Of a stretch of DNA of 64,000 nt, positions 8,708 through 45,459 are shown one piece after another. A program made the translations under genes and the position numbers. The DNA is taken from positions 1,067,115-1,131,114 of the forward strand of contig NW_006768788.1 in NCBI RefSeq assembly GCF_000204055.1, read 5' to 3'. The notes beneath the pieces are model-generated. The model was not told the DNA's origin. It saw only the letters and a list, made by a program, of their open reading frames with translations, and did no database searches. This DNA comes from Melampsora larici-populina 98AG31. Taxonomy: Eukaryota; Basidiomycota; Pucciniomycetes; Pucciniales; Melampsoraceae. Each line of letters begins with the position of its first letter. Position 1 is the first letter of the stretch.

Positions 8708-9510
8708 GAGTCAAGTCAAGTGAAGTAGTGAAGCTCAATCGAGTTGATATAGTCTTGGTGATGATAGCTTGGATTGGATTGAGAAAGTAAAAGTAATCTG
8801 AGATATTCCACTCTATCTCTCTCTCTTGTTTCTTTGATTTGGTTGTCGTTGTCGAGTAAAGATTGAGTTGTTATGGTTTTGAATGAGAATCTCAACCAAT
8901 CGGATTGTCAAATTCAATTCATTAACCCTAACAACCCATCCATTCTACCAATCTACTCTTCTCACATAAATCACTCATTCACTACCTGTCTTCCTCACTC
9001 ATCCGCCACTCCTAATATGCATAAATCATCTTCTTGTATTCTTCTTTCACTTTGACAAAACCATGGGCTCTTGAATTCACTCTCCAGTGATAATCTCAGA
9101 ATTCTCAAACCCATGCCCTCCACTACAATGTAAATTCTAAAATGAGGACGAATGAGGAATAAACACATCATCACATATGACTCAGACAAGACGCCGCATT
9201 TTGGTTGAAATGAGTTGACAAGATGAGTACTGGATTGAAAGGTAAGTCAACAAAAGGCAAAAGTTGAGACCGTGACAGTCTTGGACGCGGAAAACGTCTT
9301 CAGTGAGAGAATTTAGAAATCTCACAAGAGAGGTCCTCAAATATACTCAGCATCGGCAGAGATTAAAAAGGCCAAGGTGAACAGGTGGACGAAGGTCAAC
9401 AGCAAAGCATAGATAAGGGGGAATAGTTCTAAAATTCAATTTGACCAACTGTTGATAATAATAATGCAATTACAAAGCAATATATAGATTATAATGACAA
9501 CAAATCATCT
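8708..9510. other. intergenic: phosphatase upstream region and downstream flank of the first Grg1-like gene
   Basis: The first part is the upstream region of the phosphatase gene (CT-rich near 8815-8830 on this strand). From about 9,400 the sequence is recognisably related to 19,230-19,376, the 3' flank of the second Grg1-like copy (shared GCAAGCATAGA/GCAAAGCATAGA-like and TCTCTAATGTTT segments). The duplication therefore includes 3' untranslated sequence. No further gene is seen. Confidence 0.5.
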
Positions 9511-9941
9511 CTAATGTTTAGCTTTTTCCTAAAGAAATGCAAATATTTCAAAGGTTCAGAAATTGAACACCACGAGTGGACATTAGAGTTATGACTCACC
9601 TTGTTAGCAGTGGCCGATGCACCATCTTTAGCCTCATTCATCTTGTCACCAACTGCATCCTAAAAGTTGACAAAAACGTATTAGAAATCTTGATCACGTT
9701 AAAAGCAAAGATGAGAAAATAATTCAAAACTTACTTTAGCAGCAGATGCCCTGGTACCCATGCTAGCGTCGCTGTCTTTCGCCACATCCTTGTTAGCTTC
9801 TTTGGAAGCAGTGTTTGTGAGCTCGCTGGCCTTGTCACCGACGTACTAATCACTCGAACATTAATCAGAATTAGATCAATGATAACAGACAGAAAGCAAG
9901 ACATGAGTACTGACGTTTAGGCTGTCTTTAACAGTTTGCAT
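9511..9941 (-). CDS. small Grg1/Ccg-1-like stress/glucose-repressible protein, copy A
   Basis: Four exons on the minus strand: 9941-9915, 9845-9735, 9659-9600 and 9528-9511. They total 216 bases and encode 71 residues. The protein starts MQTVKDSLNYVGDK and contains ASKEANKDVAKDSDAS, MGTRASAAKDAVGDK and a Lys-rich end (EKAKH). This layout matches the Grg1/Ccg-1 family of small hydrophilic fungal proteins, which are induced by glucose depletion, stress or the clock. Their biochemical role is unknown. No signal peptide or membrane segment is present. Exon phases are all zero and exon lengths are identical to copy B at 19,377-19,804. A TGACGTCA site lies 278 bases upstream of the start codon. I am confident of the structure and fairly confident of the family name. 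Confidence 0.87.
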
Positions 9942-10947
9942 GATGATATGGATGAGATTTTTGGGCTGTGCTAAAGACGAAAGAGAATGAAGAGAAAGCA
10001 ATGGTATGATTAAGATGAGACAATGGTAAAGAAGAAAAGTAAGAGAAAGAAAAGAGAGAGTCTGGAGTAAGAGGTAAAACGCACAAAGTGAGTTTTTGAA
10101 AGATTGGTTGTTGGTGATTTGAATGATGACTTGGGGATGGGAGGAGGAAAGAAAGCGACGATTGAGGTCAGCTTTTGTAGTCGAAAGTAAACGGTCAACA
10201 GGCTCTGAAAATGAAGAATGACGTCAACTTCAAATAGAACTTAACCCGGTAATGGCTTACACCATTCTCCACTCGATGAAGATCGGCGCTCACTAAAGAA
10301 AGGTAAATCACGGTCTGTCGATCCGGCACAAACGATAACCGAGCCAAAAAGCCATCATCAACTTGCTTCACTCGCAGATGAGAGACAGTAAACTCATGAG
10401 GCCTTTTGATATCCTAACAGCACTTGCTATGGTAAAACTCATATATGAATCAAAGTGTTCGTCTTCACAGAAGTTTGATTCGATGAGGGGTTTCAAGCTG
10501 ATAGTTTTGAGGTATATGAAGCGACATACATCAGCTTGAAAACGTACGTAAAAAGTATCTCCAACCTGGGGTCTACGAATTGAGGGCAGCTCTCATGAAG
10601 ATGTTTGGGACACTTGTGAATTTTTGAACAAGACATGAAATTGATGACATACCAATGCGCGGATGGGGATCACCAATGATTTTCAGGTGAAAGTCAGGCA
10701 AGCAGTTTTGGCTCATTGAGTAAGAAGTATTGGGTTGGTCTTGCGCGACCTTTGGCCTCCATCAACTCATGGTCAGCATCGCCACGCAGTACGCTTGCAC
10801 AATAAAGGAAATGACAATTTTGCACATCTTGGCCAGCGGGGGAGTCACACTAATTTGGGTAAATATTCAGTTGCCATGGCTTGGGAGCGGAGAAGTATCG
10901 TCTCAAAGAGACGCAATATCGAAACGTAGTAGCAACCCAAAAGATGG
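9942..10947. other. promoter region of Grg1-like copy A and pre-insertion spacer
   Basis: The first ~530 bases are the promoter, alignable by eye with 19,805-20,385: shared GTCAGCTTTTGTAGTCGAAA at 10,168 and 20,040, TGACGTCAACTTCA, and CGGCACAAACGATAACCGA near 10,324 and 20,209. From about 10,470 to 10,947 it is the spacer that lay between the two copies before the large element inserted. No convincing gene is seen there. Confidence 0.5.
10219..10226. promoter_or_regulatory. CRE/ATF-type palindrome TGACGTCA upstream of Grg1-like copy A
   Basis: A perfect 8-bp palindrome starts 278 bases before the ATG at 9941. The same octamer sits 280 bases before the ATG of copy B, inside a conserved block (TGACGTCAACTTCA). 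Family knowledge: TGACGTCA is the consensus for ATF/CREB bZIP factors, which drive stress genes in fungi. Retention in both duplicates supports function. Binding is inferred. Confidence 0.6.
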
Positions 10948-10956
10948 GGAAAGGAC
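10948..10956. repeat. target-site duplication GGAAAGGAC, left copy
   Basis: GGAAAGGAC at 10948-10956 directly precedes the left terminal inverted repeat and is repeated exactly at 19196-19204 after the right one. If two more terminal bases (CC/GG) are counted to the element, the duplication can be read as 7 bp. The 9-bp reading uses the outermost base that is still inverted-repeated. Confidence 0.85.
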
Positions 10957-11251
10957 CAAACTTATATAAGTCCAACTCGCGTGGCCCCGACGGTACAAGT
11001 ACCACGTACCTCCGAGCGCCAGCGAGGGACTTACGCGCAATCTCCAAAATCTGGCGTGAGATCAGGGAGGGCTTCTGCCCAAAATCTCTTGTCTCACTCC
11101 CTCACTTCAAACACTTATCAACACATGTTGAGACTATAATGAAAAAGACGCGCAGGACTGCCTTCTATAATTTGCCATGCTCAATTCCCCAGCGGCCCAT
11201 CACGTTTTAATAATAGATCCCAAAAAAGGTTCTGGGCCATCACCGGGGCCG
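10957..11251 (+). repeat. left terminal inverted repeat (295 bp)
   Basis: It starts CAAACTTATATAAGTCC and ends CACCGGGGCCG. Read against the reverse complement of 18901-19195 I find no mismatch. Just inside, the two sides diverge at once (CCTGAGG against TACATGA), so the repeat edge is sharp. The outer TTATATAA is itself palindromic. Confidence 0.93.
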
Positions 11252-11604
11252 CCTGAGGTTACATGTGCTCCCAACGCTGCGCGTCAGAAAGCTTTGCCTC
11301 AGCGAAAGATTTAACTACAGTTGGAAATGCAGTTTGGCTTTGGCATTTGGCATGATTCACAGTACATTGCTCATAACAGATCCAGTAGGCCCGAGCTGGA
11401 AGTGAGTAATATGTCAGTATGAATGTTGCAACATGAGGTCATTGGGTCAGGCAATATAACTGACCACACAATCCTAGTAGCTGCGCAAGCACTCTACCTT
11501 TCAGACGGAGAATTCTTGGGGGCTACCCAGTTTGTTGATGTTGATTTGAAGTTCATCTGCCTGAGCAACATTAAAGCAAAGGACGGGCAAAGGAGAGCAT
11601 TAAG

Positions 11605-12051
11605 TCAATTGCTTACACAGGCATATGACGAGCATAGAATCACCTGCTCTTGCACGAATTCACGCCATATAGTATCCCCGTTGCCTGCATCATATATGCA
11701 ACCTCGTATACTCATCAAGACACTTCGTATCAAGCGGCGCGAAACTGGGCTATTCCCACGCAGGTCATGTCGTTGGGGTCTTCGGCGGAGGAAACGATGA
11801 TCCAAAAAGTTGAAGATGAACTGCCAGACATTCATCTGGCTGATTTCGATGAATTCGATGATCTCCACAGTTTGATTAAAGAGCCTTCGCGTAGTTGATG
11901 ATGATGCACGGTTTTTGGCGATGCTCGTGGGGAACGGTCCATCCACGGCTTCGATGAATGAGTCCACGGTGAGGCCTTCGCCCTCAATGGTGTCGGTGAT
12001 TCTCCCAATGACTCCCTCTAGATCAAGCAGGGGGTCCACGTAGGGTGGCAT
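11605..12051 (-). CDS. unrecognised ORF inside the TIR element
   Basis: The minus-strand frame opens with ATG at 12051 and runs 148 codons. Its first ~60 residues read like a real protein (VDPLLDLEGVIGRITDTIEG, then GLTVDSFIEAVDGPF). They resemble the helical N-terminal part of DUF6589 proteins, which often has a GLT-x-x-x-F segment. The rest (after about residue 60) is less convincing and may be intron or shadow. It lies opposite in direction to the DUF6589 body on the plus strand. It could be a third element gene, a captured or inverted fragment, or an exon whose partners I could not find. Confidence 0.4.
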   Translation of the reverse strand: MPPYVDPLLDLEGVIGRITDTIEGEGLTVDSFIEAVDGPFPTSIAKNRASSSTTRRLFNQTVEIIEFIEISQMNVWQFIFNFLDHRFLRRRPQRHDLRGNSPVSRRLIRSVLMSIRGCIYDAGNGDTIWREFVQEQVILCSSYACVSN

Positions 12052-12858
12052 ATTGCGAGGTGATATACAATAACTGGGTCGAGGCAGAGAGATCCTGAGC
12101 CCTTTGAAGGCAACTGTGCGAGGTTGCGAAGTCCTTTTGTTATCTTTTCTTTATCAATGGATAGCAATTACAAGTCTCATGAATGGCGGACACCCACCCC
12201 AATCTGCACTGGTGTGAAACACTTTCAAGTTCAGGCGCAAGCGCGTTAAAATGACTGTTCCCTTTTCATGTGACTTCAAACCATGACTCGGTAGAATGAA
12301 TGGGACTCAAACTTTTCGATGGGCACTAAGCAATATATTAGCTTGATCCGAGGGTATGACCGTTTCACTTGGATAAAACCAGGAGCTTGACGCTTGGCTA
12401 GTCCTTTGGTCACCTGCCGATTGGGCAGTTGTTCATGTGCACCGGATCCCAATAGGTATTCCGATTATGGGAGACTCACAACTAGTGTCACATCATCGGC
12501 GCTCTTGCACACGTTTGGCAAGCTGGAGGTGCTACGGTGACACGAGGAGGGACCCAGCGCAGAGTGTATTTGCTGCATTCGGTTCAGTTGAGGTGCCTTT
12601 CGGATGCGGATGGTATATCTCACATTGCCAATAGATTTCAATGTAACAACTGAGGGGGGCAAGGGTAAGCGCCTCGTTTGCTTCACTTATCGCAAACTCA
12701 TGAGGTGTTTCGATTCAAGCAAGGAAGTGACCCCAGTTCGCTGACGCCCTCATTACTTTTCATGACGGCGGCCCACTGAGTATCTTGAAGCCCAAAAAAC
12801 CCCCCAGCGTTGATATCAATTCTCCTGCCTTTGATATTGGCCTGATTATTCCTCGTCT

Positions 12859-15775
12859 ATGGAACCGGGAGTTCAAACTGCGGACAGCAGGCCGTTGCCC
12901 AACACTGTAAATCGTACCATCCTGGTGTTGAGGTACATGGCCGAGCTGGATATCGCTCCAAAACAATTCATGGTCACTTTCATGTCGTCCATGGAACCGG
13001 AGATCAAATATTGTCGACGCCTGATGAGGACCGGCCTGGGGATTGAGCAAACCCGTTCAATCATCAACAATTTTGGCAAACACACAAAGTCTTGCGAAGA
13101 AGGTCGTGCGGCGTGGGAGGAATTGATATTGGACCAGGTAGGTCGCTTCCTTGGTCCGGATTGAATCATCACAAAGGTTAACATCTGATGGTGATGATTC
13201 ACATCCCTTCAGGCTTCAGACATCGTGAATCATCAAGGATTGCCCCGCGGACATTTCCCTACAGGTGCATATGTCAGTTCAAACAGAATCACCGCCGACT
13301 TTTTCAGCGAGAGTTCTGAAACACTTCGCGAAGAGCAAGTAAAAAAAGGAATGAGCTTCCTATACTCACTCATTCATCAAAAGGTCCAAACCGACCTGAA
13401 TCATCCGCCTGAAGGTGAACAGGATGACGAAGCAGATGAAGACAATTCCTTCACCGATTGCGCCTCAAACACTGCCATGGCCTCTGTGGACGGTAGCCCA
13501 ACGGTTGATGGTGATCTAGATGAAGATACTGTAATGTCCATGGAGAACCTGGTATTCGTCAAACCTTTGGACAAGGACCAAGCTCGTCACAAGCTGGCAA
13601 AGGTTCAAGCACCTCGTTTCTTAATCAATCAGATGTATTCGAGCTGATATATGGGATGAACCACGTAGGTCCCCATCTTGGTTTGTGCAATGATTGCGAA
13701 TACCGGGAACCGTCGCAGCAATGCCCTTCAAACCGCCAATGGTTTGATGGGATACGCGGGTGGAATATCATGTCGAATCAATGAGTGGCTGCATTGCCAC
13801 GGAATCACGACTTCAAGGTCGACTACGCTCGCCGCTATGGACAACCTGCGCCGTGTACAAGAAGATCGTTTGATGGACGTGTTCAAGCTCAATCATAAGC
13901 TTCTCCCACTGCTCATATACGACAACATCGATATCCAACTGAGAATTCATAATACCCGTGTAGAAGCTTCGTCTCGCCTATTTCACGGAACCTGGGGATT
14001 CTTCATCGTGGTGAGGGCTTGTCTCCAGGCGAAGTGTAGCACGGAAGTAGCCCGACTGGCCTCTTTTTTGGACGCAATGGCCTTAGCCGACAAGAAGAGC
14101 GTCCATCTGTCATCTTTTTGCCCTACCCCTGCGGAAGCGGCACATTGGGTGTCAGTAGTCAAGGCGCAAGTGGCGAAAGCATTGAAAGAATACGTGGATC
14201 ACCTCCCTGGCGCGCCAGACAGGCTCAAGCTCCCTTCACTGATGACCAAACCGCCACCCATTGACCCCATTGACATGCACTTACCCAATATACATTTCCT
14301 ACGAATGATAGACGCGCCAGATTCTTCAGCCGAGGGTGTCTCGCGGGTCCTAGACGAGGTCATTCGGCAAATAGGTCTAGATAAGAAGAAGTACGCGGAA
14401 AGCCTGCTTGTAGCCGGAGGTGACGTGGGCTCGAATCAATTGCTCAAGAGCCTGCGTCAGAAGCGGTTTCCTCCTATTGACTCCGTAGAGGGAATCCAAT
14501 GGGTGCTCTCCATCTTTGGTGGGGCTCATACAACGTGGAACTTCACAAAGGCTCTACTAGGTCACCACTGGGGGAAATCCGACAACGGCGATGACACAGG
14601 AGCCTGGCGCTCGTTGTTTGCGTTGGGAGGAGAATATAAAAAACCTCCGGCGACGCAAGATTTCAACACGATTATGCGCTCGGCCCGCATACTTCATAAG
14701 GCCAACCTGGTTCATATCATAAGGTCAGCGTCTATGTATGATACGAACTGGAACGCATGTATGTACTTACCCACCCTTGGTAATTCAAGAGAGACATTCG
14801 AGTCCAACCACGAATTAGATTTGACCAAGGCGAAAGACTGTGAACGTCTGGTAGATCAAATTTGGGATGTATATTTTAGTGGAACATCATTAGAAGAGGC
14901 CAGACTGGCGTTCGACTCAACTCGATACAACTTGATGTTACGGCTGCGAGACTTCGCCACCGTGGTCGAGGCTCACGAAGCCACCCGCGCGGGGGATATA
15001 GGGCGTCTCATCCTCGTGTGGAAACATTGGGCTGTGATGGCCCAAGGCATTCAGGGGTTGTCAAATTATGCAAGACACATCCCGCGGATCGTCTTGTTGC
15101 TAGAGGAAGACTTACCTCGAGAACTGGCACATGCAATTAAACATTGCCTCCTGATTCCGTCTAATGAGAGGCCAGATCATTGGCTTCCGATTGATGAATA
15201 CCTCGAGATCAGCATCTTCTATCTCAAGCAGGTTTATAATAACACGGTAAGTAAGCTCCACACATGGTCAAGTAGGCGTGCTCTGTTCATGACGGAATGT
15301 TGACCAAGCCACCCTTTGAGCGCCCTTAGGGGAATGGCACTGACCTTCGACGCCTGATGGATCGACTCTCCAACATTATTTCTTTGGTAAGTTTCGAGCA
15401 GATCCTCAAAATTTCATTGCATGAATTGTCACAAAGCTTAAAACATTTGAATACAACCGCCTGCAGCTACGAAAGCTAATGCAGCTATTTAAAATTCACT
15501 CTGGACACACGTTACTCTTTCAACCGAGCACCAATTCCATTAGCCCTCAGTCGATGGCGGCGTTCCTGGCTTATGCAAAGGCAAACCTAGGTAAACAGGC
15601 GGCCAGGCGGCCTTCACCTAAGGTAGGTAATATACTCAAGGTAGGAGGGCGGAATATGATCAAGCTCATTCGAGCTGACCAAATGGCGGGTCGTAAGTCG
15701 AGGTTTTGTTGGGGGGCAGCGGACGTGTTGTCTTCGTGGGACAGTCAGGGTTCAGACTTGCCTGGAGAAGAATGA
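12859..15775 (+). pseudogene. DUF6589-like protein, candidate transposase of the TIR element
   Basis: Supported exons are ~12859-13137, 13213-15246, 15330-15386 and 15467-15775. The N-terminal exon holds a helical block (ILVLRYMAELDIAPKQF, then TRSIINNFGKH). The long exon holds the features I associate with DUF6589: NRRSNALQTANGLMGYAGG, LLIYDNIDIQ (invariant Asp), LLVAGGDVGSNQLLKSL (GD motif) and GGAHTTWNFTKALLGHHWG. Spaced acidic positions with His-rich surroundings are compatible with an RNase H-like nuclease, but this is inference. Three in-frame stops sit within 24 bases: TGA 13645, TGA 13657 and TAG 13666. The frame is unchanged across them, and a 34-base intron would be too short, so I read them as C-to-T lesions. 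The 5' start is not resolved. An alternative upstream frame near 12,778-12,900 (PPSVDINSPAFDIGLIIPRL) may be the true first exon. Confidence 0.7.
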
Positions 15776-15850
15776 CATCAAATGAAATGAAAGATGTTAG
15801 CCCAGAAACTCGACAAGTGCTCATAATACTTCAGCAGCGCCTGAGGCCAA

Positions 15851-15902
15851 GCCATCTCGCTCTGACAATGAATATGGACATTCATTGTCAGAGCGAAATG
15901 GC
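15851..15902. terminator. 23-nt stem-loop between the two converging element genes
   Basis: Arms 15851-15873 and 15880-15902 are complementary over 23 positions with one mismatch (C at 15856 against A at 15897). They enclose a 6-base loop (ATGGAC). The hairpin overlaps the stop codon of the helicase gene (TGA on the minus strand at 15888-15890) and lies 76 bases after the stop of the DUF6589-like gene. It could act in 3'-end formation for both transcripts or be a protein-binding site for mobility. The role is inferred. Confidence 0.6.
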
Positions 15903-18654
15903 AAACAGTTTAACCGCTTTGATGAAATCGCACCATGGAAATACCTGAGTCGCCCGTTTGTTTGATGGGGTATTTTCGTAGCAGTGGTCACGTGGGCGTT
16001 TGGGGGTGGTGTCTCGAGGTGCAGGGAGGGGTACCACCGGACTCCTTGGGGAGGTTTGTGCGACCTCATTCTGTGCAGTTGCCGCAGCCTCTTTGGTCAA
16101 TCGTGCTTGACCTCGCTTAGCCGCCGAGTTTGCCTCACGTTCCAATTGTGCATGTTCTCTCTTTGCAGCAGCAACAGCCTCACGTTCCAGGCGTGCCAGT
16201 TCCTTCTTCGCAGCAGTGTCATTTTCTCTTTGGGCTTTCGCGGCGGCCCGTTGCTGAGCTCGTTCAATGGAAAGTGCTTCCTTCAGGGCGGCCCGTTGCC
16301 GCGCTGCTTCTTGCTTTTCTCGCTCTTTCTTTTCGAGCACCGCCGCCCTCTCAAACGCCTTCGCCTGGGCGTCCCGTAGTTTCTGTAAGACTCGGGCCTC
16401 CTTGGTCGCAATTCAAATGGCCTCGAGTCGATGCTTTGAAAGCTGTGCCCCCTCAACTGATTGGACGAGTTTGGGCGGCCCGCGCGAAGGGGTGTCCCTT
16501 CGATTTGCAGCCAGGGCAATAATGTCAGTTGATGACTCAAGGTTCTTCCATTCTAAGAACTCGTCGAAAAGTACAGCGAATTGCCCCGAGATGGCCTCGC
16601 TAGCCAGAACGACTCCGAGATCCTCAGGATCTTGCAGAATATCAACATTCTTAGCGAGGTCCCAAGCTAAGTCTTGGCCGAAATAGTCGTCAGGCCCTAA
16701 ATGGCAAGGCTCAGGGAAAGTGCTGTGCCAAAAGTCATTGAACACCCGAATCCATCGGGAGACCAGGTTTTGGAGAGCCGGACAGTCCAATATGGGATCA
16801 TCAGGGCCACAGAGGTATGGAATGGGGCGCGAATCGCCCAAAGGGAAGTGAGGAGGGTCGGGCAAGCTTGCGAGCAATTCTTCAAGGGCGACCTCGTCCA
16901 TTTCCAGCGCACAATCAAAGTTCACGTTCGTCATAGCCGGTTGAGCCAACCAGAGGGCTTCCGCCTCATCAGGCTCGCAGTTCGAGCAATCACAGACACG
17001 CATATCGGACTCTAGCTGCCGTTTCTCTTTGGCAGCGACAACCGCGGAATCGTTGTCCAGCGGTATGTAACCGTGCCTGGATGAATAATCCGAAGGCTTC
17101 AGCGGCCTAAGTTCGAATGATAATAAGAGAGTCACAACTTACTCCAGATCAACCGCGAGGGCAACACGCAGGCAGACTGGCGTGATAGCCAGCGCATCCA
17201 TACGGTCGTCATCGGTCATGACCATGGGCGTTTCAAAATCATCAACACTATTTTTTCCGTTAGCTCAAAAGTGTTCGACCAACAGAAAGGCCAGGCCTCG
17301 ACGGCGATCCCTGCCACATCGTCCAGACATCTGGACGAAGTTGCACGGGTCTTGGCGCCCAACAATGACCACACGTCGAACCCTGTGCCAGTTCTGGCCT
17401 AACCCTAGTGCAAGGGTACAGCAAATGACGGCGAGTTTACTTGCTACAAACACCTGGACCGCGTGAACTTTTGCGTTCTCGCCGGTGGTGGCGTGGTAAC
17501 GCCGAGCAAAATCCGACTTGCCATTTCCAGCCTCGGTAGGTTGTCCTCGGGCCAAGTTAATCAGCTCTAGATAATCCAATGTTGCATTTTGAGTGCCAGA
17601 GTAAATCAGAGTCGGAGGAATCGATGATGTAGGTATCAAAGTATGATGGGTAAAGAGGTTCCGTAATGAGGCTTTCAGCGGGCGCTTGAAGCTTCTTCTG
17701 ATTAAACGTAGTTCTGGCCGGCTGAGCTCAGCGCGGACGAATCGAACATCACGAGTGTCAAGCTTGAGGTTTCCAACGATAGCTTCAATGGCGTGAGGAG
17801 TGCAAGTGGCTGACATCAAGAGTAAAGGCACTTTGTCGGAGGCCAAAAAGCGACGGGCTAGTTGTCCATAAGAAGGTCGAAAGGCCCCACCATCGTGGAC
17901 TCGGGACCAGCTGGCCAGGCGTTTTGCTTGACCACTCTCGACCAAGCCCCAGGTATATACCATGTGGGCTTCGTCGACCACATTGAGTACCAACCTTGTT
18001 TGGAAACGAGCATCCGTCCACATACGATCAAAAACATCGCTCGTCAAGGCTACCTCTGGGCTCTAGTACCATGTGAGTCGAACATCAATTAGAAATTGTC
18101 AGTTGAAACTCTCATTTATTTAGATGACGAGAATGGAACTAGGGAAGGGGATGGTCAATACCACGTAGACAAAGTTAAATTTTCCCTGAATAATCGCATT
18201 GCAGGCCTCGTGTGTACAGTTGGCTCCTGTCAAATTGATACCTTTCAAATGCACAGATTCCTTCTCGCTGACCTGTTTCGACAAAGACTCGAAATTGTGA
18301 GCTCAATTCCAGGTATGCCCGTAGCTGCGCCAAAGGAGTCTAGCTGACCTGGTCGTCACCTAGAGCATCCAGAGGGTTGATGCTCAGCAAAATTGGTGCC
18401 GCATGCTCCTCATATGCCAAATAGACCAATTCTGGCACTCGGCTTTTGCCAAACCCAGTACCAGCTAATAAGAATGTTGTTTGGCCGTTGATCAAGTTTA
18501 TCACCGCCTCGACTTGCTGGGGTCGGGCAGGATATCCATATTTAGAACGAAACAAGTCGCCGATGATTACTGCTTGCTGTTCTTCACTGATCCCTATAAG
18601 TTCCGCTCGTAGTTTAGGACGTGACGTATTCGATTTGGCTATTCGGAGAGCCAA
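15888..18654 (-). pseudogene. RecQ-like DNA helicase with a CxCxxC segment and coiled-coil tail, in the TIR element
   Basis: Minus-strand exons are about 18654-18349, 18272-18162, 18062-17143 and 17106-15888. Motifs in order: ARPQQVEAVINLI (Q-like), LLAGTGFGKS (Walker A), SPEVALTSD, VVDEAHMVYTWG (DEAH box), LLLMSATCTP (motif III), PPTLIYSGTQNATLDY (motif IV), LALGLGQNWHRVRRVV (motif V), and FVQMSGRCGRDRRRG (motif VI, arginine finger). Then follow DDDRMDALAITPVCLR, CDCSNCEPDE (possible metal-binding Cys) and a long Ala/Arg/Glu coiled coil. RecQ enzymes unwind DNA 3' to 5'. Here a role in transposition is inferred from location. Two in-frame TGA codons interrupt the frame, at 17265-17267 and 16413-16415, each explained by a CGA-to-TGA change. 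The true start is unresolved: the first exon has no in-frame ATG, so one more upstream exon or splice is likely. Confidence 0.78.
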
Positions 18655-18900
18655 GCATTGGAGGCGGACTGACTCCTACGTAGCATTCTGAGAGGTGACG
18701 TTTGTAGAAATGATATAGAGGGTTTCGGAGGGTGGTGATATGATGTGATGTCACTGTGAGGGGGTGTGAATTTCGTGTACTTGGCAGAAATTCCTTGTTT
18801 GGTGCAGCTGATCGAGAAACTGCAGTTTCTCTTGGAACTTTTGTATGTTTTGTCCATCAATCAGGGGTTTTGGACGCCGCAGTCGTGCCCCAGTCATGTA

Positions 18901-19195
18901 CGGCCCCGGTGATGGCCCAGAACCTTTTTTGGGATCTATTATTAAAACGTGATGGGCCGCTGGGGAATTGAGCATGGCAAATTATAGAAGGCAGTCCTGC
19001 GCGTCTTTTTCATTATAGTCTCAACATGTGTTGATAAGTGTTTGAAGTGAGGGAGTGAGACAAGAGATTTTGGGCAGAAGCCCTCCCTGATCTCACGCCA
19101 GATTTTGGAGATTGCGCGTAAGTCCCTCGCTGGCGCTCGGAGGTACGTGGTACTTGTACCGTCGGGGCCACGCGAGTTGGACTTATATAAGTTTG
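18901..19195 (-). repeat. right terminal inverted repeat (295 bp)
   Basis: This is the reverse complement of 10957-11251 with no difference seen. It ends ACTTATATAAGTTTG and is followed by GGAAAGGAC. The identity of the two ends points to a young insertion or to homogenisation of the ends. Confidence 0.93.
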
Positions 19196-19204
19196 GGAAA
19201 GGAC
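19196..19204. repeat. target-site duplication GGAAAGGAC, right copy
   Basis: Exact repeat of 10948-10956. Joining the flanks without the element gives an uninterrupted spacer between the two Grg1-like genes, about 1.2 kb from the stop of copy B to the start of copy A. Confidence 0.85.
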
Positions 19205-19376
19205 GGTCTCTCAGGGTTCAAGGTCTCGACAAGACGAGAGGCAAAGGTTGGAACACGGGTCAAAAGGCTCAACCGCAAGCATAGAGAGAACAGTCTAAGA
19301 TTCATTTTGGCATACGGTGGATGATAGTAATACATTTACAAGGGAAAGTGGGGATCATAGTGGCAACAAAGGATCT

Positions 19377-19804
19377 CTAATGTTTGGCTTTCTCCTAAAG
19401 AAATCAAAATCAAGCAAAGGGTTAGAAGCTAGACCACAAACTCATGACAAAATGTAAACTAACCTTGTTGGCAGTGGCTGATGCACCGTCCTTGACCTCG
19501 TTGATCTTGTCACCGACTGCGTCCTAAATGTGCACGACAAAGTGTTAGGGATACTGATAACATTAAACATAGGAGAGAATAATTCAAAACCTACCTTGGC
19601 AGCTGTTGCCCTGGTACCCATGCTGGCATTGTCATCTTTGGCAACTTCCTTGTTGGCTTCTTTTGATGCAGTGTTTGTGAGCTCGCTGGCCTTGTCACCA
19701 ACGTACTAATAATTCAAACATTAATCAGAATCAGAATCAGACCGAGGAGAGGAGTTCAAGTGAAGCTGACGACTAACGTTTACGGCGTCTTTGACAGTCT
19801 GCAT
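19377..19804 (-). CDS. small Grg1/Ccg-1-like stress/glucose-repressible protein, copy B
   Basis: Exons on the minus strand are 19804-19778, 19705-19595, 19523-19464 and 19394-19377, also 216 bases and 71 residues. The protein starts MQTVKDAVNYVGDK and differs from copy A at few positions (for example DDNAS for DSDAS and RATAAK for RASAAK). All intron positions are the same, while intron sequences have drifted. Substitutions are mostly conservative, so both copies look under selection. The promoter block around TGACGTCA is also kept. The upstream end of the duplicated segment runs into the N gap at 20,386. The function is the same as for copy A, known only as a stress- or carbon-responsive small protein. 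Confidence 0.87.
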
Positions 19805-20083
19805 GATGAATTGGATAAGATGTGTTGAGTTGTGCTAGAGACGAGATGGAATGAAGAGAAAAGAAAATCATAAATTAGAAAAGGAGACGATGGTGATGAA
19901 AGAAAGTAAGGGAAATAAAAGGAAAGGGTGTTGCGGGAATCTAAGACGCACAAGGTGGTTTTTAAGAAGATTGTTTGTCGAATGATTTCAATGATGGTTT
20001 GTGTTGTGGATGGGAGAGAGAAAGAGAACGGCGATTGAGGTCAGCTTTTGTAGTCGAAAGGAAATGGTCTCGAAGCTCTAGCA

Positions 20084-20091
20084 TGACGTCA
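20084..20091. promoter_or_regulatory. CRE/ATF-type palindrome TGACGTCA upstream of Grg1-like copy B
   Basis: Perfect octamer 280 bases upstream of the ATG at 19804, at almost the same distance as in copy A (278). The surrounding promoter has many differences between copies, so the unchanged octamer stands out. Confidence 0.6.
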
Positions 20092-20385
20092 ACTTCAGTT
20101 AGAACTTGATCCGGTAATGACTTACATCATTCCATGAAGATCAACGCTCTCTATGAAAGGCAAATCTTACTCCTCACTTCTGCCATAACCGTATGGTCGA
20201 ACAAGTCCGGCACAAACGATAACCGATCGGAAAGGGCATTAGCCATTTGCGTCATACTCTGAAGTAAGTCTATCACCCCTGCGCATCTCATACGGGTCGT
20301 CAGTTGATGTCCTGACTACACGTAACGCTTGGTATGGTAAAGCTCACATGTGAATCAAAAAGGTTCAGTTTTACTTTGATTTCAT

Positions 20386-36429: not shown

Positions 36430-38499
36430 AGATGTGTGAAAAAACTTACATGCGGTCAATTTAGGTTCATTATGAGTTATGGACATACAAGCTTGAAGGT
36501 CTTCAAAGTTGTAGTATTTTATTTTCGAACAGTAGATTAAAAATCATATTCAAAATAGAATTTCATATACATCCTTTTTCTTTTGGAGCTCACCATTTAT
36601 AGTCCGGAAAAACACACCCAAAGCCCGCTTTTTTGGCTTAACCAAAGCAGTCAAACATTTTTCGGGCCATAGCCCCATTTTTCTCTTCAATTCTTGATTT
36701 ACACTTGTTTGGTTAGTATTTAATCAATTTTTCTCTTGGTTAGTTCTTGATGCTCATTTGTTCATTTCTTTTATTTGCTTACACTTCTCGTTCTATGGAT
36801 TTCTTGACTTTTTGATATCTTCACACTCATTTTGGTATGGCACTGCTCGCCATCAGATCATTCATCTTTGTTTTCTTTGATTCACCCTCTTGAAATTCAT
36901 TATACTATAGTTTTGCACTTGAAATATCACAATGACAATTGATAAGGAGGCCATCAATCACAAGAAATCTCAACAAAACAATGTGATTGATTATGTAAGT
37001 TGAAGTGTTGGAAAATAGTCAGTATAAGTGAAAAAAAAGGATCACATGTGTTTTTTGTTTGGAAAAACATCCATCAAAAACAAACAGAGTATTTGACAGA
37101 TGTACTCAACATAGCAACAGTGCTGTGCAAGTCAGCCCAGCCCGCTGTTGGCAAAATGGGCTGCAGCCTGGTGCCAATTTTGAAACTGGCCTTCAGTTAT
37201 TTTTTCTGGACTACAAGTAGTGAGCTCCTTTGTATTCTGTATTCATGAAGTTCTATTGGATTTTACATTGGTGAGATAGCCAGGACATGGTTAAAGGCTG
37301 ACAGATCCTTAGGAGGTGATACAATCAAAGACCTGCAGTCAAGATCAAGGTGTCTTTTAGGGTATCTTACTGAGGAAGGCTGAGGCAATATGAATAGTAT
37401 GTAGCTCAGACCACAGGAATTAAACCCATGACAATATCTGTGGCAATACAGTCAGCATTGATGTTCATCACTTGTGAAATAATATATGTACAGTCAAATC
37501 CCATTGTCAGTGTTTGACAGTTGCCATGGAATAGTTCTGTGCATCACATTTCACACTTGCCTGTATGTTGGATATCACCACCCCATGTCCTGTCCATTCA
37601 AGCATCACCACCCAAGTGGTAGTGATGTGACAATTGCAACACTTCCCTTCCCAAGTCATCAATGAGTATGAATGGTATTTCAGTTATGAGTCCACCTTAA
37701 ACCACAGCTTCCAACCTATAAGCTATTTTGCTTCTTTCTTGTCTGTGGTGATAAATAATCTACATTTTTTGTTAGCTACTGCAGCAAAAACAATCTGACC
37801 AGACCTCTCAACTTGTCACACTGCAAATATAATGCATTTTTCCAAGGTGAGAAAGATTACATTTATTTTACAAAATGACTAGCCAGATTGAGCAGCGGGC
37901 GCCACACTGAAATATTTATGAATGTATGTTGTAATAACAGCCAACTGTGTATGTACGTAACATGATGTCTCACTTGGCATACTGTGAGATTGCCTCACCA
38001 ACAATCAGAAAAGGCATGACATGTTATTGGCTATAAGACACTGATGCTGAATGTAGTTATCAATCATGGCAGTTGACTTGAAAAAGCTGCTGCTCTGGAT
38101 TCTTGGGGGAAGAGAAAAAGGGTCCCATGTGAATACAGATCTACAATAGTTTGTTGAGGATGAATCTAATGGTGTAGTGTGAATGGTGTTCACACTATTG
38201 GAGGCGGTAAAAATTGCCTGAAAATCATTGCTGGTCTTAACCAAGGCACGACTTAAGGGGAAAGTTCCATGAGCAAAGATCTGAGGTAGTGAGTAAACTG
38301 TACAGCCTGTACGAGAGTACAGCTCGCACCTTCCAAGATTCCAAATCTAGGGAAAAAAAAATTTGCTGTACACAACCTTCACACCTCTGCTCAAAAGCTT
38401 GCGAATAACATCAAGACATTCATAGTTTCTATACCCCGTTCCCCTATAAACTTCTTTTTTGTAAACTCATACGACACTCAGGAACTATCTTGCACAGTC
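36430..38499. other. gene-poor stretch with repeat remnants
   Basis: A short exon-like frame at 36,932-36,993 (MTIDKEAINHKKSQQ) ends at a good GTAAGT donor but has no clear continuation. A ~62-base block at 37,819-37,880 repeats a sequence near 2,538. The last 240 bases are the leader of the tyrosine-recombinase retroelement. I could not identify its terminal repeat. Confidence 0.45.
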
Positions 38500-38913
38500 A
38501 TGTCATCTTTCAACAAAGAAATAGAGGCAGCAAAAAAGAAAATTACAGCAGCGGGTACAAAGATACGAATCACCAGGAAAGGCCAGAAGGGACATGATAC
38601 TGCAAATATAGAAACTAGAAGCCAGTCCAAGGCAGGAGAAGCAGGAACAAGCAAGGAACAACAACAAACCCAAGAGACAAATTCAGGACAACAAGAAGAG
38701 GAACCCGAGACGGTTGAGAATCAGAAACAGCAAGCAAGCGAGGAACCAGTAGCGAGTACAAGCAAAAAAGAGGAAGGACAAGTACTCAACGAACCAGAGA
38801 ACGAGACTCAAGAAAACGGTAAGCATTCAAATTTTTTAGAGGAAGCAAGTCAAGAGAAATCCAAAAGACGACCCACTAGGATTCGCCAAAAATCAACAAC
38901 CCGCCACCCATAA
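38500..38913 (+). CDS. YR-retroelement ORF1 (charged, Gln/Glu-rich, Gag-like)
   Basis: An open frame of 137 codons starting MSSFNKEIEAAKKKI. It is strongly charged and low-complexity (Glu, Gln, Lys, Thr) with no conserved domain that I recognise. Its place before the Gag and RT frames suggests a nucleocapsid-like or leader protein. It may be joined by splicing or frameshifting to the frame at 39196. Confidence 0.55.
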   Translation: MSSFNKEIEAAKKKITAAGTKIRITRKGQKGHDTANIETRSQSKAGEAGTSKEQQQTQETNSGQQEEEPETVENQKQQASEEPVASTSKKEEGQVLNEPENETQENGKHSNFLEEASQEKSKRRPTRIRQKSTTRHP

Positions 38914-39195
38914 AATCTTTCATTTCTCTTTATCCAACAAACACCGTTTCTACTTTTCAATCCTGTCATACCAAGGGGAGAAACAAATGTATTAGCCCAA
39001 AATGAAGAGGACGCGGGAATATCCGCAGGGAAAGCCAAAGCAACTTGCTTAAGAAAAGGAACCAGTGCTCCAGTCACAAAATACTGAGGCTCGGCACAGG
39101 CTATACCGTGACCAAAAAAGAACCCAAGTGGAAATGCACACCGAGGCAAAATATATCCAAAAGAATCACCTGAATAGAAAGAGACCAAGGGCAAT

Positions 39196-39663
39196 ATGCT
39201 AAAGTCCGCAAAACTAAAGACAACTGGTGTTTCTTTTCTCGTTCTGACAGAAAACCTAGACCACGAAAGCCGGAAGGCGAAGTGGATGGAAAGAACCAAA
39301 CACAAATACTACTGGGGTGACTCAGATCGAGCAGACGAGATGCTCAGAGCATTTAATGCAGTGTACGGAGGCGAGCATCCTACGCAACAAGACCGAGACA
39401 ACGTAACAGACAACGTCAGAAACGTTGCCGGCAACAAACGTGCTAGATCTCCAGCGGATCCACCAAATACACAACGCGTAAGCCAACGCCCACGCACAGA
39501 GTCCCTGGTACCAGGCGGCGAGAGCGAGAGCGAGGAGGAACATACCTTGGTCACAAAGAAGACGCCTATGGACTCTAAAAAACCAGCAGCCAAAGCGAAA
39601 AAAACCTGCAGAGCCCAAAGACCTTCAGACAGACGAAGAACCCAACAACGAAGAAGGGGATGA
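39196..39663 (+). CDS. YR-retroelement ORF (Gag-like, basic C-terminus)
   Basis: 155 codons. The first half has helix-like segments (KWMERTKHKYYWGD, then ADEMLRAFNAVYGGE). The second half is Glu/Ser-rich, then Arg/Lys-rich, as in nucleic-acid-binding Gag tails. No zinc knuckle is present. It could be the second part of one Gag together with the frames before and after. Confidence 0.5.
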   Translation: MLKSAKLKTTGVSFLVLTENLDHESRKAKWMERTKHKYYWGDSDRADEMLRAFNAVYGGEHPTQQDRDNVTDNVRNVAGNKRARSPADPPNTQRVSQRPRTESLVPGGESESEEEHTLVTKKTPMDSKKPAAKAKKTCRAQRPSDRRRTQQRRRG

Positions 39664-39867
39664 TGGTGAGCATAAACCAACCTGTAGAGTGGTTGGAAAG
39701 TCAGCAAGCAGACAACCACAGCTGACCAAGTGACTCCAACAAACAGAAACGGAAGAAGGGATCACCTACATGATAGGCAAGCCTATTGAAGGAACCATTT
39801 TGTTACCGTTAACACCTTACTTTGAGAACAGAATCACCGCCAAGTCGGAAAAAAGAAAACAAAATCC

Positions 39868-40707
39868 TTGAAGGAACTGCAAGAAGACAATTCAACGGCC
39901 ACGTATTCAGGTTTGACACCACCGGAAGAGCTTCTGATGACGTATGGCGCGTGGACAGACACGATAGATTTGTTCATCAAGTACCTAGAGACAGAGTATA
40001 ACAGACCAACAGCCGCCAAGATGTTCATGCGCCACAAAGAAAACGTAGGGAGAATAAGAAGATCAACCAAGTGCTGGATGGTGGCCTTAAGGTACTGCAT
40101 GAAAGTGCGCCTCGTAGTGATGGTCGTGAAGAAGAAAAACAGTAAACGGGTCATGATAGACGCCAGCCATTTTCACGAAGATATCTTGAGAGAAGCGAAG
40201 GAAGAAGCCAATAAAAACGGTGAAAGGAAATATGCTGAGAACCCCTACGTAGCCGGTGGCAGGAAAGAGCAGATCGACCCTACAACCGGGCTAACGAAAT
40301 TGGTGGCAAAAAGGAGTTTTGCGTTCAAAAACGGTAGCGGATCAAACCAAAGTAAGCATGTTGACATCAGGCAGAAAGACCAACGAGCTGAAAAGACGGT
40401 TTTGCCCACAGGAAGTTCCTTCCCCCCCCAAACCAGCCAATACGCAAGCAACGCGCAAACGGCGCCGAACAGGAGCTGGGGTAAACTGGAAAGCGTAGGT
40501 TATCAAGGCAGAAATTTTGTAGAGAATTACAGTGCCATCAAAAGAGCAAACGGATCCTGGAACTCGAACCAAAAGATAGACGCAAACCAAGTGTTCGGAA
40601 CAGAGGGAGCTGGAAAAGGGAAGAGTTACCTCAAGGGAAGGGGAGGGGGAAACGTCAGCTCTGGGAGCGGTAACGCAGGCACCCCAGCAGAAGCAGAGAA
40701 ACAGTAA
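39868..40707 (+). CDS. YR-retroelement Gag-like ORF
   Basis: 279 codons in one frame. The first codon is not ATG, so translation must come from upstream by splicing or frameshifting. The N-terminal ~120 residues are helical (LMTYGAWTDTIDLFIKYLE, then TAAKMFMRHKENVGRI), resembling the capsid-like block of DIRS/Ngaro Gag. The C-terminus is Gly/Asn/Ser-rich and basic (GKGKSYLKGRGGGN). The frame ends at a TAA shortly before the RT region. Confidence 0.55.
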   Translation: MKELQEDNSTATYSGLTPPEELLMTYGAWTDTIDLFIKYLETEYNRPTAAKMFMRHKENVGRIRRSTKCWMVALRYCMKVRLVVMVVKKKNSKRVMIDASHFHEDILREAKEEANKNGERKYAENPYVAGGRKEQIDPTTGLTKLVAKRSFAFKNGSGSNQSKHVDIRQKDQRAEKTVLPTGSSFPPQTSQYASNAQTAPNRSWGKLESVGYQGRNFVENYSAIKRANGSWNSNQKIDANQVFGTEGAGKGKSYLKGRGGGNVSSGSGNAGTPAEAEKQ

Positions 40708-40743
40708 GTCTCCAAGCAGACCTAGCTTTAGTCGAGGAGTGAA

Positions 40744-42741
40744 TTGTTGCCAGTTTCCATGTTCTTGCTGTGTGAAGTAATGAATCCAAAATTTTCACCA
40801 CGAACACCCTTTTCTGCCAATAGACCCGTGACCGCAGACGACCCTGAGAAAATAGTGAGACAAGCCCTGTTCGTGAAGAGCCCAAGAGCTAACCCTCCAG
40901 AAGGGAAGGGCAACGTTGAGGTGAAACAAAATCTAGACGTGAAGTCTGCCCACCCCGTCCTGAACCAAGTCCCAAATCACCTACAAGCAAGCCTGGTAAA
41001 CAAATACAGGGGTCCAATCCCAAAGCTAGCGGCGACACTCCCGGAGGGAGGATACCACATGAACAGAGTGTGGCCAAAGAAGGTCGAGTGCGAGATGGAC
41101 CTGGAGGCATGGGAAAAAACGCTGAAAGCACTAAACTTGATGGAGAAGCACGGCTATGTACTACAAGGCTTCAGATACGGCTTCACGCAAGGAATCCCTC
41201 AACATACAGTTGGGGACAAGAAATTCTACGCTCCAGATAATCACGCAACACACGCTAAGGAGAAAGACAAGATAAGAGAGAAAATATCAAAAGAGTTGAA
41301 GTCTGGCAGGATGCAAGGCCCTTTCACGGAGGATGAAGTGCTGTCGGCCCTAGGTTTCTTCCAAACCAGCCCAATGGGTATGGTGACAAACAACAACGGA
41401 TCTACACGAGTAATAAATGACCTGTCCCACCCGAAGCACGTAAGAGGAATATTGTCAGTAAACTCGTACGTCAACAAGGAAGATTTCAAAACCAGTTGGG
41501 ACAATTTTAGGACCGTCACGGCTTTCTTTAGCAAGGAAAACGGGGTACTAGAGCTGGGGATTTTTGACTGGGAAAAAGCCTACCGGAAAATTCCAACCAG
41601 CCCCAACCAGTGGTGATACTTAATGCTGAAAACGTCAGAGGGTCGTTTCATCCTGGACACGAGGGTGTCATTTGGCGGCGTGGCAGGGTGCGGAAGTTTT
41701 GGGGGCCCAGCAGACGCGTGGAGGGCTATTATGAAGAAGAAATTTAATTTTGTAGAGGTGTTTAGGTGGGTCGATGACAATTTGTTCATCAGGAGGGCAG
41801 GTGAAATTGACCCAACATTGATGAAAGAAGTGGTAGACGCAAGCGCAGTGTTGGGAGTGAAAACCAACGAGGGGAAGTATTCCAAATTCCAAACCAAGCA
41901 GAAGTACATTGGTTTCATCTGGAACGGTTGAGACAAGTCACTTCGTCTACCGGAGCGGAAAAGACAAGAGAGACTTGAGCAGATCAGAGAGGCGATAGCA
42001 AACGAAGGCCCACATACTCACAAGGCAATACAGAAGCTGACCGGTAGACTAGACCATGTAACCTACATGCTCCCGCAAATGAAATGCTACAACATAGGAC
42101 TCTACGGAATGCTAGCAGGATGGAAAAACGAGTTAGCCATACGGGGAATACCAAACCATGTTAGATAAGACTTACAAGAGTGGGAGGAAGTACTAACAAA
42201 CTTCAAGAACCACAGATTGCTCCCCAAGAAAGGAGTCGAAAACATCGGGTGGATTGGTGATGCATCCACGAGCTTTGGGATAGGGGTGATCGTGGGAAAG
42301 CGGTGGACACAGCTGAAACTCAAAGACAGTTGGAACAAAGTGGATGAGAGGGGTGTGAAACGCGGAATAGCGTGGCTAGAGACTGTCGCCGTAAGAATGG
42401 GCCTCAAAATGATACAAAACACAATTGAAACAAGGGGGAGAAGGTTTTTGGTCCTAACGGACAACACCGGGACCGAAGCGGCTATACGTAATCAGAAGTC
42501 TAGAGATTGATCAGTGAACGACGAATGGAAATTAATTCAAAAAGAATTAGCTTACCTTGATTGTGAAATAGAAGAAAGATACGTAAGGACGGGTGACAAC
42601 AACGCTGACGTCCTGTCAAGAGGTGACAGAGGAACAAAGAAACAGAAACACCACAAAAAACCGGAAATCCCGACCCATCTTACAAAATATGTCGAGTACG
42701 AATCAGAAGAAGCCTACGAGAAAAGGACGCGCAACCTTTGA
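40744..42741 (+). pseudogene. YR-retroelement reverse transcriptase and RNase H, interrupted
   Basis: RT blocks in order: TSPMGMVTNNNGSTRVINDL (template-binding), LELGIFDWEKAYRKI (motif A), SFGGVAGCGSFGGPADAW (motif B), FRWVDDNLFIRR (catalytic DD, motif C), and KTKQKYIGF-like (QTKQKYIGFIWNG). RNase H follows: WIGDASTSFGIGV (first Asp), AWLETVAVRMGLK (Glu), VLTDNTGTEAAI (Asp) and GDNNADVLSR (Asp). Stops interrupt at 41614 (TGA), 41929 (TGA), 42166 (TAA) and 42508 (TGA) without loss of frame. Three are explained by TGG or CGA turning into TGA. The catalytic residues themselves are preserved, so decay is fairly recent. Confidence 0.75.
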
Positions 42742-43882
42742 AAGAGTTACAAGGAATGAAGACGGCGAAGGTGAAGAGAGTTGGAGAAAGCCGGTGTCGG
42801 AGCACCTGGTGAAAGGCGCGTGGACAGACAACACAATGAAAAGCTATGGAAGTGCAGTACAAAAATTCAAAGCCTATGTAGAAAGCACAGGACAGGTATT
42901 CAACGCGGAAGAACCAATAGAGGGAAAGGATGTGTACGGATTAGTGGTTTGGGCAGGACCGTCTGAAGTAGAGAAGTTGTCATGCCCGAATAGGGAGATC
43001 AAGGCGAAAACGGTGGAGAAGTATCTGGCGGGTTTGAAAGCATGGCAAGTAGCAAAACATTTGAAACAACTGGAGCTGGATAAACAAACAGTAGATTGGC
43101 TACTGAAGTCGACAGCAAGAAGCGAGGAAAAAAGAAAGCTGTTGGGAGAGAAGAGAGAACAAAAAGAGAAGAAGCCGATTCGAGTCCAGAAATTATTCGA
43201 AATGATAGCGGAGCTGAATAACAAATCTAAGGCACACGACCTCGCGATAACGATAGCCCTCTGCGCCTTTTGGGGAATGGCACGACTCGGCGAGCTGGTA
43301 AGAGAAACGACTCTAGAAGGCGCTATCAGACTAGAAGACCTGTCCTTCAAAGAGACGAAAAAGGGCGGCATCGCTATCCTAAGGGTATGGAAGGCCAAGA
43401 CAGCGAAGCCAGGCAAACCACAATTCATAAGGTACGCAAAAGAACAAATTGTGAAACGATTGTAGGACCCATGCTAACTGGAAGTCGGAGAAAAGAATGA
43501 CTTAACAGAACTCGGTACTGGACCCAGTGGGGGCACTGAGGAGATGGGTGAACAAAGAACACAAGGAAAACGATGGGAAAGCCCTGCTTTTCTCATACAA
43601 CGTAGAAGGCGAACGGCAGACGATATCGAGAATGAAGTTCACCAAAATGATGGAAAACGTGTGGGGTAAACACAGCGTACAAACGGGAGAGTGGTCGGGT
43701 CACTCTTTCCGAGTGGGTGGAGCATCTCTGAGGTTCAACCTAGGATGGGAAAAAGAGAAAATCATGGAAGTTGGTAGGTGGAAATCAAAAGCAGTGGATG
43801 TCTACCTTAAAAGCTTTGGGGAAAAAGAAAAGGAAGATACAAAAGATTTCCTATGGCTCATCGACCGGAGGAACAGATAAGA
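42730..43882 (+). pseudogene. YR-retroelement tyrosine recombinase, interrupted
   Basis: The N-terminal SAM-like part reads GAWTDNTMKSYGSAVQKF, then KTVEKYLAGLKAWQ. The catalytic domain has Arg in FWGMARLGELVRE, the His-x-x-Arg box in WSGHSFRVGGAS, and GRWKSKAVDVYLKSF with the Tyr nucleophile. So the R-H-R-Y set is present. The frame breaks between 43465 (TAG) and 43527, where about 60 bases must be read in another frame, pointing to a small indel. Tyrosine recombinases insert circular cDNA by recombination in DIRS-type elements, without target duplication. Confidence 0.75.
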
Positions 43883-44309
43883 GTACAGCCGAGATATACA
43901 GAATCCCGTATTAATTCCAGAGAGTTAAAATGGTGTACACCCAAAGTTTTGAACCAATAAAGTGAAATACAGAGCTAACCCTCCAAAAATGAGCACAAAC
44001 AAGTCAGACTCGCATAGAGTTTGACGGGACGCTCAACGAGTTGAGACTTGACGCGAGCCTCACTGTATGGGGTGTTGATTGCCTGAGCCACCAAACTCTA
44101 ATTGCCACGCCCGCATAAATTGGCGAGCCACAAACGGGGCCCGCTCAGTCGTCCGGTAAGGTTTAACCGTGATGAAACAGAGCGCGCACCCGGGACCGGG
44201 CTCCCCCAAACATCTCCTCCCTCAGCCTACGAATACATAGGCCTAGGAAGGAGAATATCACGTGAGGTATATAAACTAGAAAAAATCTCACATCTAACGA
44301 GATTTGTAG

Positions 44310-45140: not shown

Positions 45141-45459
45141 TCTGTGCCTTGAGGCATTCTTTCAGCAGACCGGGACACAATCTCAAGCAGAAGACAGGTA
45201 TAAATATCTGTCGTTCTCTCCGAGTTCTCCTTCTCCTCATCCTCTATCATTCACATCTTTTGATAACATTTCCCAACCACTTCTCACTCCGCACTTTGCA
45301 TCCCCATCATCTGAATCTTTTTAAACCTTCCACAACTGCATCATCACATCACTCTATCTTCTACCATCCAATCCAATCTCAGAAATCTTGATCTTTCTCG
45401 ATCTTCATCCTTCAATCTCTTCAATCCATCTCATAATTACTCACCTTCCTATAATCAAC

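Follow-up and report, generated by a model that had tools for sequence, protein, structure and literature searches.

The 64,000-nt window analysed here (C24:1067115-1131114 of the 98.3-Mb Melampsora larici-populina 98AG31 assembly; C numbers denote contigs) contains, at positions 10957-19195, a DNA transposon that carries a DUF6589 gene and a RecQ-like helicase gene. Gene pairing across the genome, pairs of a common end signature, 9-bp target duplications and a predicted DDE fold with conserved acidic residues point to DUF6589 as the predicted transposase of this element and to the helicase as its partner, in agreement with an earlier, sequence-only reading of the same DNA. We regard it as highly probable that the element is a transposon with terminal inverted repeats (TIRs) and 9-bp duplications, with DUF6589 as its predicted DDE transposase and the RecQ-like helicase as a likely assistant, and that it likely belongs to the AcademH lineage.

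Structure of the element

The unit had been described as bounded by 295-bp inverted repeats and a target duplication, and both boundaries were confirmed: the TIR arms are fully complementary over 295 bp (100%), and the flanking 9-bp duplication is exact. A repeat finder returned 296 bp instead of the true 295 bp because of chance pairing of flanking bases. Inside, the DUF6589 gene (+) and the RecQ-like helicase gene (-) face each other and are accompanied by a third conserved open reading frame (ORF). The features of the element are as follows.

10948-10956, no strand: left copy of the 9-bp target duplication, GGAAAGGAC, exact
10957-11251, + strand: left TIR, 295 bp, first letters CAAACTTA
10959-11033, + strand: terminal signature AACTTA-N3-AAGTCC...GGGACTTA, imperfect subterminal hairpin, left end
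11605-12150, - strand: third conserved ORF, 181 aa stop to stop, with profile kinship to the DUF6589 N-terminal domain
12859-15775, + strand: DUF6589 gene, several exons by comparison with Melampsora americana protein P0001, putative introns; predicted DDE transposase
13669-15303, + strand: main DUF6589 exon ORF, 544 aa, Pfam DUF6589 (PF20231)
13921-13923 and 13930-13932, + strand: codons of candidate catalytic residues D85/D88 of DUF6589, conserved acidic residues
14422-14424, + strand: codon of candidate catalytic residue D252, conserved acidic residue
14518-14529, + strand: GxxH motif, DUF6589 residues 284-287
14968-14970, + strand: codon of candidate catalytic residue E434, conserved acidic residue
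15888-16412, - strand: helicase C-terminal tail, charged and repeat-rich
16413-17138, - strand: C-terminal part of the helicase, containing a CDCSNC motif; in-frame stop at 16413-16415 when compared with its relatives
17265-18062, - strand: core of the RecQ-like helicase; in-frame stop at 17265-17267 when compared with its relatives
18340-18675, - strand: helicase ATP-binding part (Walker A); DEAD E 0.0014 and recQ_fam E 0.0036, both below cut-off
18901-19195, - strand: right TIR, 295 bp, 100% identity to the left TIR
19119-19193, - strand: same terminal signature, right end
19196-19204, no strand: right copy of the 9-bp target duplication, GGAAAGGAC, exact

No further transposase domain was detected by Pfam in the nine window ORFs scanned, as expected from the claim that the unit encodes no other transposase, nor in 10 of the 12 listed ORFs of L029 and 10 of the 19 listed ORFs of L010. 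The flanks of the element (9428-10370 and 19294-20254) are direct repeats of about 0.9 kb, with five blocks of 75-87% identity at a spacing of about 9.87 kb; they are perhaps an older duplication that received the insertion.

Copies of the element and evidence of movement

The 295-bp repeat had 44 matches in the genome, many of them arranged as inward pairs. An exact 9-bp duplication flanked all 13 paired copies of the window family with assignable ends, a count that excludes two fetched short pairs without assigned ends. Eight of these copies bear genes (C24, C35, C30, C5, C8, C21, C59 and C64) and five are short (C33, C7:1219305, C97, C1 and C17). A genome query with joined flanks, which covered 8 of the 13 insertions, identified empty sites elsewhere for five of them (C33, C35, C7:1219305, C8 and C97), for example C1:1050460 for the C35 insertion, with 99% identity across 220 bp; the same query found no empty site for C24, C30 and C5. 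Exact duplications were present at 18 of the 19 gene-bearing elements with both ends, the exception being C7:2005960, which has 290-bp repeats and no target duplication.

Genome-wide pairing of DUF6589 and helicase genes

The genome yielded at least 104 DUF6589 matches (at least 94 merged loci) and at least 144 matches to the helicase core (at least 139 merged). A helicase was located within 8 kb at 85 of the 94 DUF6589 loci, and 84 of the 94 were convergent with the helicase downstream, compared with a chance expectation of about 2.4 pairs. These counts are lower bounds because only part of the candidates was scored; helicases at C35 and C30 were listed as unpaired, yet reading their elements revealed a DUF6589 gene. 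Furthermore, identity to the window proteins was correlated between DUF6589 and helicase (r 0.98, 12 loci). As the sequence-only reading had predicted, many copies in the host genome pair both genes between matching ends with 9-bp duplications.

Public protein names gave nine DUF6589-helicase pairs with adjoining locus tags among the 59 and 81 tags listed, six in M. larici-populina and three in Puccinia striiformis by annotation; the chance expectation is 0.07, assuming 15,000 genes per annotation. For other Pucciniales, the predicted recurrence of the pair was seen at the level of protein names, in the three pairs of P. striiformis.

A common end signature and short copies

In an alignment of the tips of related and unrelated copies, most started with C(A/T)AACTTA, followed by AAGTCC, a spacer and GGGACTTA. 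When four ends were folded as single strands with RNA parameters, the AAGTCC block paired with the GGGACTT block into an imperfect hairpin. The pattern AACTTAN{3,4}AAGTCCN{27,57}GGGACTTA had 468 exact matches in the genome, versus none for a reversed control. Signature pairs were analysed among the first 100 of these matches (contigs C1 to part of C8), which formed 29 inward pairs of less than 25 kb, 12 long and 17 short. The long pairs (6.3-18.2 kb) contained a helicase in all 12 cases and DUF6589 in 11, and no helicase or DUF6589 was found among the matches listed for the short pairs (0.57-2.2 kb, median 616 bp). Signature pairs bracket 11 of the 19 DUF6589 loci and 12 of the 29 helicase loci in this portion of the genome.

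An exact 9-bp duplication was found at the predicted edge in all ten newly checked long elements, whose helicases share 40-46% identity with that of the window in six cases and 69-77% in four. The remaining two long elements are C5:1130611, one of the 13 duplicated copies, and C7:2005960. Ten of the 17 short pairs were tested for a duplication, which was exact at the expected edge in six, matched at 8 of 9 bp in one and was absent from three; this count was taken at the expected edge, and an automated tally differs from it because it accepted edges that were shifted and insisted on ends with C and G.

A further short element, at 1082-2013 of L023 (C17:203456-206474), has the tip CTAACCTAAC, a hairpin signature of the same type and a 9-bp duplication, and is nested in another short copy. 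At five palindromic spots (C1:1069820, C3:3116293, C4:1605173, C5:1303970 and C6:1038978) the signature can be read on either strand over almost the same stretch of 57-83 bases; these spots look like fold-back or tip-only remnants.

Predicted transposase fold of DUF6589

The product of 13669-15303 (+) matched Pfam DUF6589 with an E value of 3.6e-65. Protein P0001 of M. americana aligned to the window gene almost end to end, the gaps being short stop-containing stretches that are putative introns. NCBIfam and Pfam scans gave no known transposase match for the DUF6589 ORF, a PDB sequence search with the ORF and then with a 65-sequence profile found no known transposase relative, and a viral fold library contained no match at E 0.001.

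Two AlphaFold models, built from overlapping alignments, matched the DDE transposases Hermes, P element and ISCth4. The fold claim is based on VIA-align, the Foldseek PDB list being weak on its own. The best matches were the hAT (Hermes) and P element transposases, and ISCth4 had the lowest root-mean-square deviation (4.6-5.0) among the best ten rows of the comparison. The conserved acidic residues of DUF6589 were placed in the model where catalytic ones belong. A structural check had been proposed for an RNase H fold with clustered acidic residues; the models are of the DDE/RNase H type, and D85/D88, D252 and E434 are conserved. On this modelling, DUF6589 is the predicted transposase of the element.

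Helicase gene

The minus-strand gene matched Pfam Helicase_C above cut-off (E 2.8e-6) and NCBIfam recQ_fam with an E value of 2e-13, which is below that model's whole-protein cut-off. At both in-frame stops of the window helicase the frames are open in two related copies (L039 and L040). The helicase of the window copy may therefore be decayed, in which case a full-length helicase may have to be supplied by other copies. A relative of the element helicase, P0183 (MELLADRAFT_109329), bears a UniRef name that begins 'Secreted p'; it is perhaps a misannotated transposon gene.

Third conserved ORF

Relatives of the third ORF were found at all eight of the other window-type gene-bearing loci read (C35, C30, C5, C8, C64, C21, C59 and C7:1559596) and also in C44, C77 and one short copy, on C1. 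The ORF was not found in C33, C7:1219305, C97, C17, C14 or the diverged C7:2005960. Genome-wide there were 35 matches, two of which, at C5, are halves of a single interrupted gene. Twenty of the 35 were located at no more than 8 kb from a DUF6589 gene, all of them upstream and divergent; 25 had DUF6589 or a helicase nearby, and 10 had neither.

Comparison of the third-ORF profile with the DUF6589 N-terminal domain gave a probability of 94.6% (E 6.6e-8), and the corresponding hmmsearch reached 5.1e-9 at best in a set of 11, 3 of which were not significant. In addition, a profile of the N-terminal domain run on 1487 ORFs recovered the third ORFs of C77 (1.6e-9), C44 (2.4e-6) and the window (6.8e-5), with no match in the rest of the window, which was included as a control. 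Kinship is drawn from these profile comparisons; BLASTP of the third ORF against the N-terminal exon of the window's own DUF6589 was weak (E 0.025). The product is likely an end-binding or regulatory (repression) protein.

Known transposases inside elements

Profiles of MULE, KDZ and hAT transposases had at least 154, 207 and 150 matches in the genome, respectively. Among the matches listed, a known transposase was seen by eye inside 2 of the 19 two-ended gene-bearing elements. The KDZ gene C5:1140252 is part of a 10.5-kb insert that has inverted repeats of 330 bp and is flanked by the 8-bp duplication ATGGGGGT; the insert around the MULE gene C6:356508 is 4.8 kb long, has inverted repeats of 90 bp and likewise shows a duplication of 8 bp. 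Without these inserts the host elements would measure about 7.8 kb and 7.5 kb, respectively. The discovery of a known transposase in elements sharing the same ends had been named as a finding contrary to the DUF6589 proposal; in both of these cases the gene is a nested insertion with its own ends.

Proposed course of transposition

We infer that the transposase would bind both ends at the tip CAAACTTA and at the hairpin-forming AAGTCC...GGGACTT block, bring them together, cut, and join them to the target with a 9-bp stagger. Cutting and joining would be carried out through D85 or D88, D252 and E434. The helicase may unwind the ends or the joined product, and the third protein, akin to the transposase N-terminal domain alone, could bind the ends and tune activity. 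Short copies that keep the ends and have neither gene would likely be mobilised in trans.

Relationship to known transposons

The AcademH lineage of Academ transposons was reportedly defined by Kojima in 2020 (Mob DNA 11:15), a paper that reportedly names Puccinia graminis Academ families with a helicase. The available parts of two papers that cite it describe AcademH as helicase-encoding, with duplications of 9 or 10 bp and a range that takes in fungi, Basidiomycota among them (PMC10045372, PMC10799480). The window element resembles this description in its duplication (exact 9 bp at 13 of 13 window-family copies and at 10 of 10 further gene-bearing elements; none at C7:2005960), in its helicase (12 of 12 long signature pairs; RecQ-like by NCBIfam, below the model cut-off) and, going by predicted fold, in a DDD/E transposase. 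A third gene and a hairpin end signature are unmentioned in those parts of the AcademH descriptions (PMC10045372, PMC10799480). Since helicase and duplication size are as described for AcademH, the element is filed as a likely member of that lineage, likened to it by description and not by Academ sequence.

KolobokH, from fungi, combines a DDD/E transposase with a RecQ helicase, and Kolobok has TTAA 4-bp duplications and 5'-RR ends, according to the part of PMC9587614 available. The window element shares the RecQ helicase alongside a transposase, whereas its family has 9-bp duplications of varied sequence and most ends are 5'-CA or CT. Identity with KolobokH was rejected on the varied 9-bp duplications as opposed to TTAA, and identity with Helitron on the inverted repeats and duplications of the window element. 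hAT and P elements make 8-bp duplications, and hAT transposases have an RNase H core with a helical insertion. Both were the best fold matches for DUF6589, yet there was no PDB sequence match, and the DUF6589 ORF gave no hit to the hAT dimerisation domain PF05699 at E values of up to 1. KDZ elements (Zisupton, Dileera, Kyakuja) resemble the window element in being abundant in the same genome (at least 207 matches) and in having a partner enzyme in rusts, which is TET/JBP according to the part of PMC12730594 available; the same source gives 8-bp duplications for Zisupton. The KDZ domain PF18758 had no match in the nine window ORFs scanned, and the one KDZ gene seen in an element is the nested one.

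A 2025 survey of Pucciniomycotina transposons, in the part available, left 27.5% of consensus sequences unclassified (PMC12210899), and subtelomeric RecQ genes are described in other fungi in the available part of PMC4522978. DUF6589 was unnamed in the literature searched, and no paper there was recognised as describing a DUF6589-RecQ unit; the AcademH paper was outside this coverage, and we do not claim that the unit is unpublished. The fold prediction for DUF6589, the third conserved gene and the common end signature are new here.

Alternative explanations

Several observations limit the reading of DUF6589 as transposase and the helicase as partner. The newness implied by the sequence-only reading is reduced, since AcademH had already been described, in the sources cited above, as encoding a helicase and making duplications of 9 or 10 bp. 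DUF6589 loci without a helicase neighbour had been named as a possible refutation; 9 of the 94 lack one within 8 kb, as opposed to the 85 that have one. The other such observations are given below with the alternatives they favour.

It is doubtful that DUF6589 founds a lineage of its own, comprising a transposase with an RNase H fold, a RecQ helicase as obligate partner, a separate relative of the transposase's end-binding domain and hairpin ends, and that this lineage is the sole cause of the DUF6589 and RecQ expansions in rusts. Also unlikely, and slightly more so, is that the element is moved by DUF6589 alone and has captured the RecQ-like helicase as a passenger that takes no part in transposition. 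In favour of this, fungal genomes commonly contain helicases, the window helicase has in-frame stops though the repeats are 100% identical, and short copies lack the helicase gene. On the contrary, the presence of a helicase in all 12 long signature pairs and the fixed convergent order at 84 of 94 DUF6589 loci argue for a partner, as do the pairs with adjoining locus tags in P. striiformis. Furthermore, the helicase diverges in step with DUF6589, to as low as about 39-47% identity, as expected of a maintained partner.

We give a little less credit still to a divergent MuDR/Mutator (MULE-type) transposon in place of AcademH. Mutator elements have long inverted repeats and duplications of about 9 bp, both of which the window element shares, and the low-deviation fold match to ISCth4 (IS256) points the same way; the best alignment, which is non-significant, puts the GxxH region of DUF6589 on the CxWH region of MULE. 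On the other hand, a search of the DUF6589 ORF for the MULE domain PF10551 was negative at E values of up to 1, and the DUF6589 profile compared with eight MULE proteins of the same genome gave a probability of 1.7%. The RecQ partner is a further difference, a helicase being reported in the available parts of the sources for AcademH and KolobokH and not for Mutator (PMC10045372, PMC9587614).

It is very improbable that DUF6589 is an accessory protein and that an unrecognised transposase encoded elsewhere moves all the elements. Sequence searches find no known transposase relative of DUF6589, whose activity is predicted by modelling; however, two models show a DDE fold with conserved acidic residues at the catalytic places, and the known transposases within two elements are nested. 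Finally, although public databases list both genes as ordinary proteins, the idea that the units arose by segmental duplication of two host genes, with no transposon involved, has practically no probability left, being refuted by the exact 9-bp duplications and empty sites and opposed by the conserved ends and the short copies that share them.

Elsewhere in the window

Positions 38001-44000 of the window show a strong AT skew of 0.30-0.37 over 6 kb and contain three ORFs, each about 293 aa long. On visual inspection, one of them looks like a reverse transcriptase and another like a tyrosine recombinase, a combination found in DIRS elements. These ORFs had no Pfam match above cut-off, and no tandem repeats were found in 37000-45500.

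Implications for rust genomes

The placement of DUF6589 and the RecQ-like helicase inside a mobile element provides a testable function for a Pfam family of unknown function. It also likely explains two expanded rust gene families as transposon genes: many rust DUF6589 and RecQ-like genes are therefore likely transposon copies, and not host or virulence genes. The end signature, in turn, links gene-less short copies (the 17 short pairs) to their likely source. Rust RecQ-like helicases are discussed as an enriched, effector-like family in the available part of PMC9370660, and expanded rust helicases as possible DNA-repair genes in that of PMC4164029. If most rust RecQ-like genes are transposon genes, such lists of effector and repair genes would need filtering.

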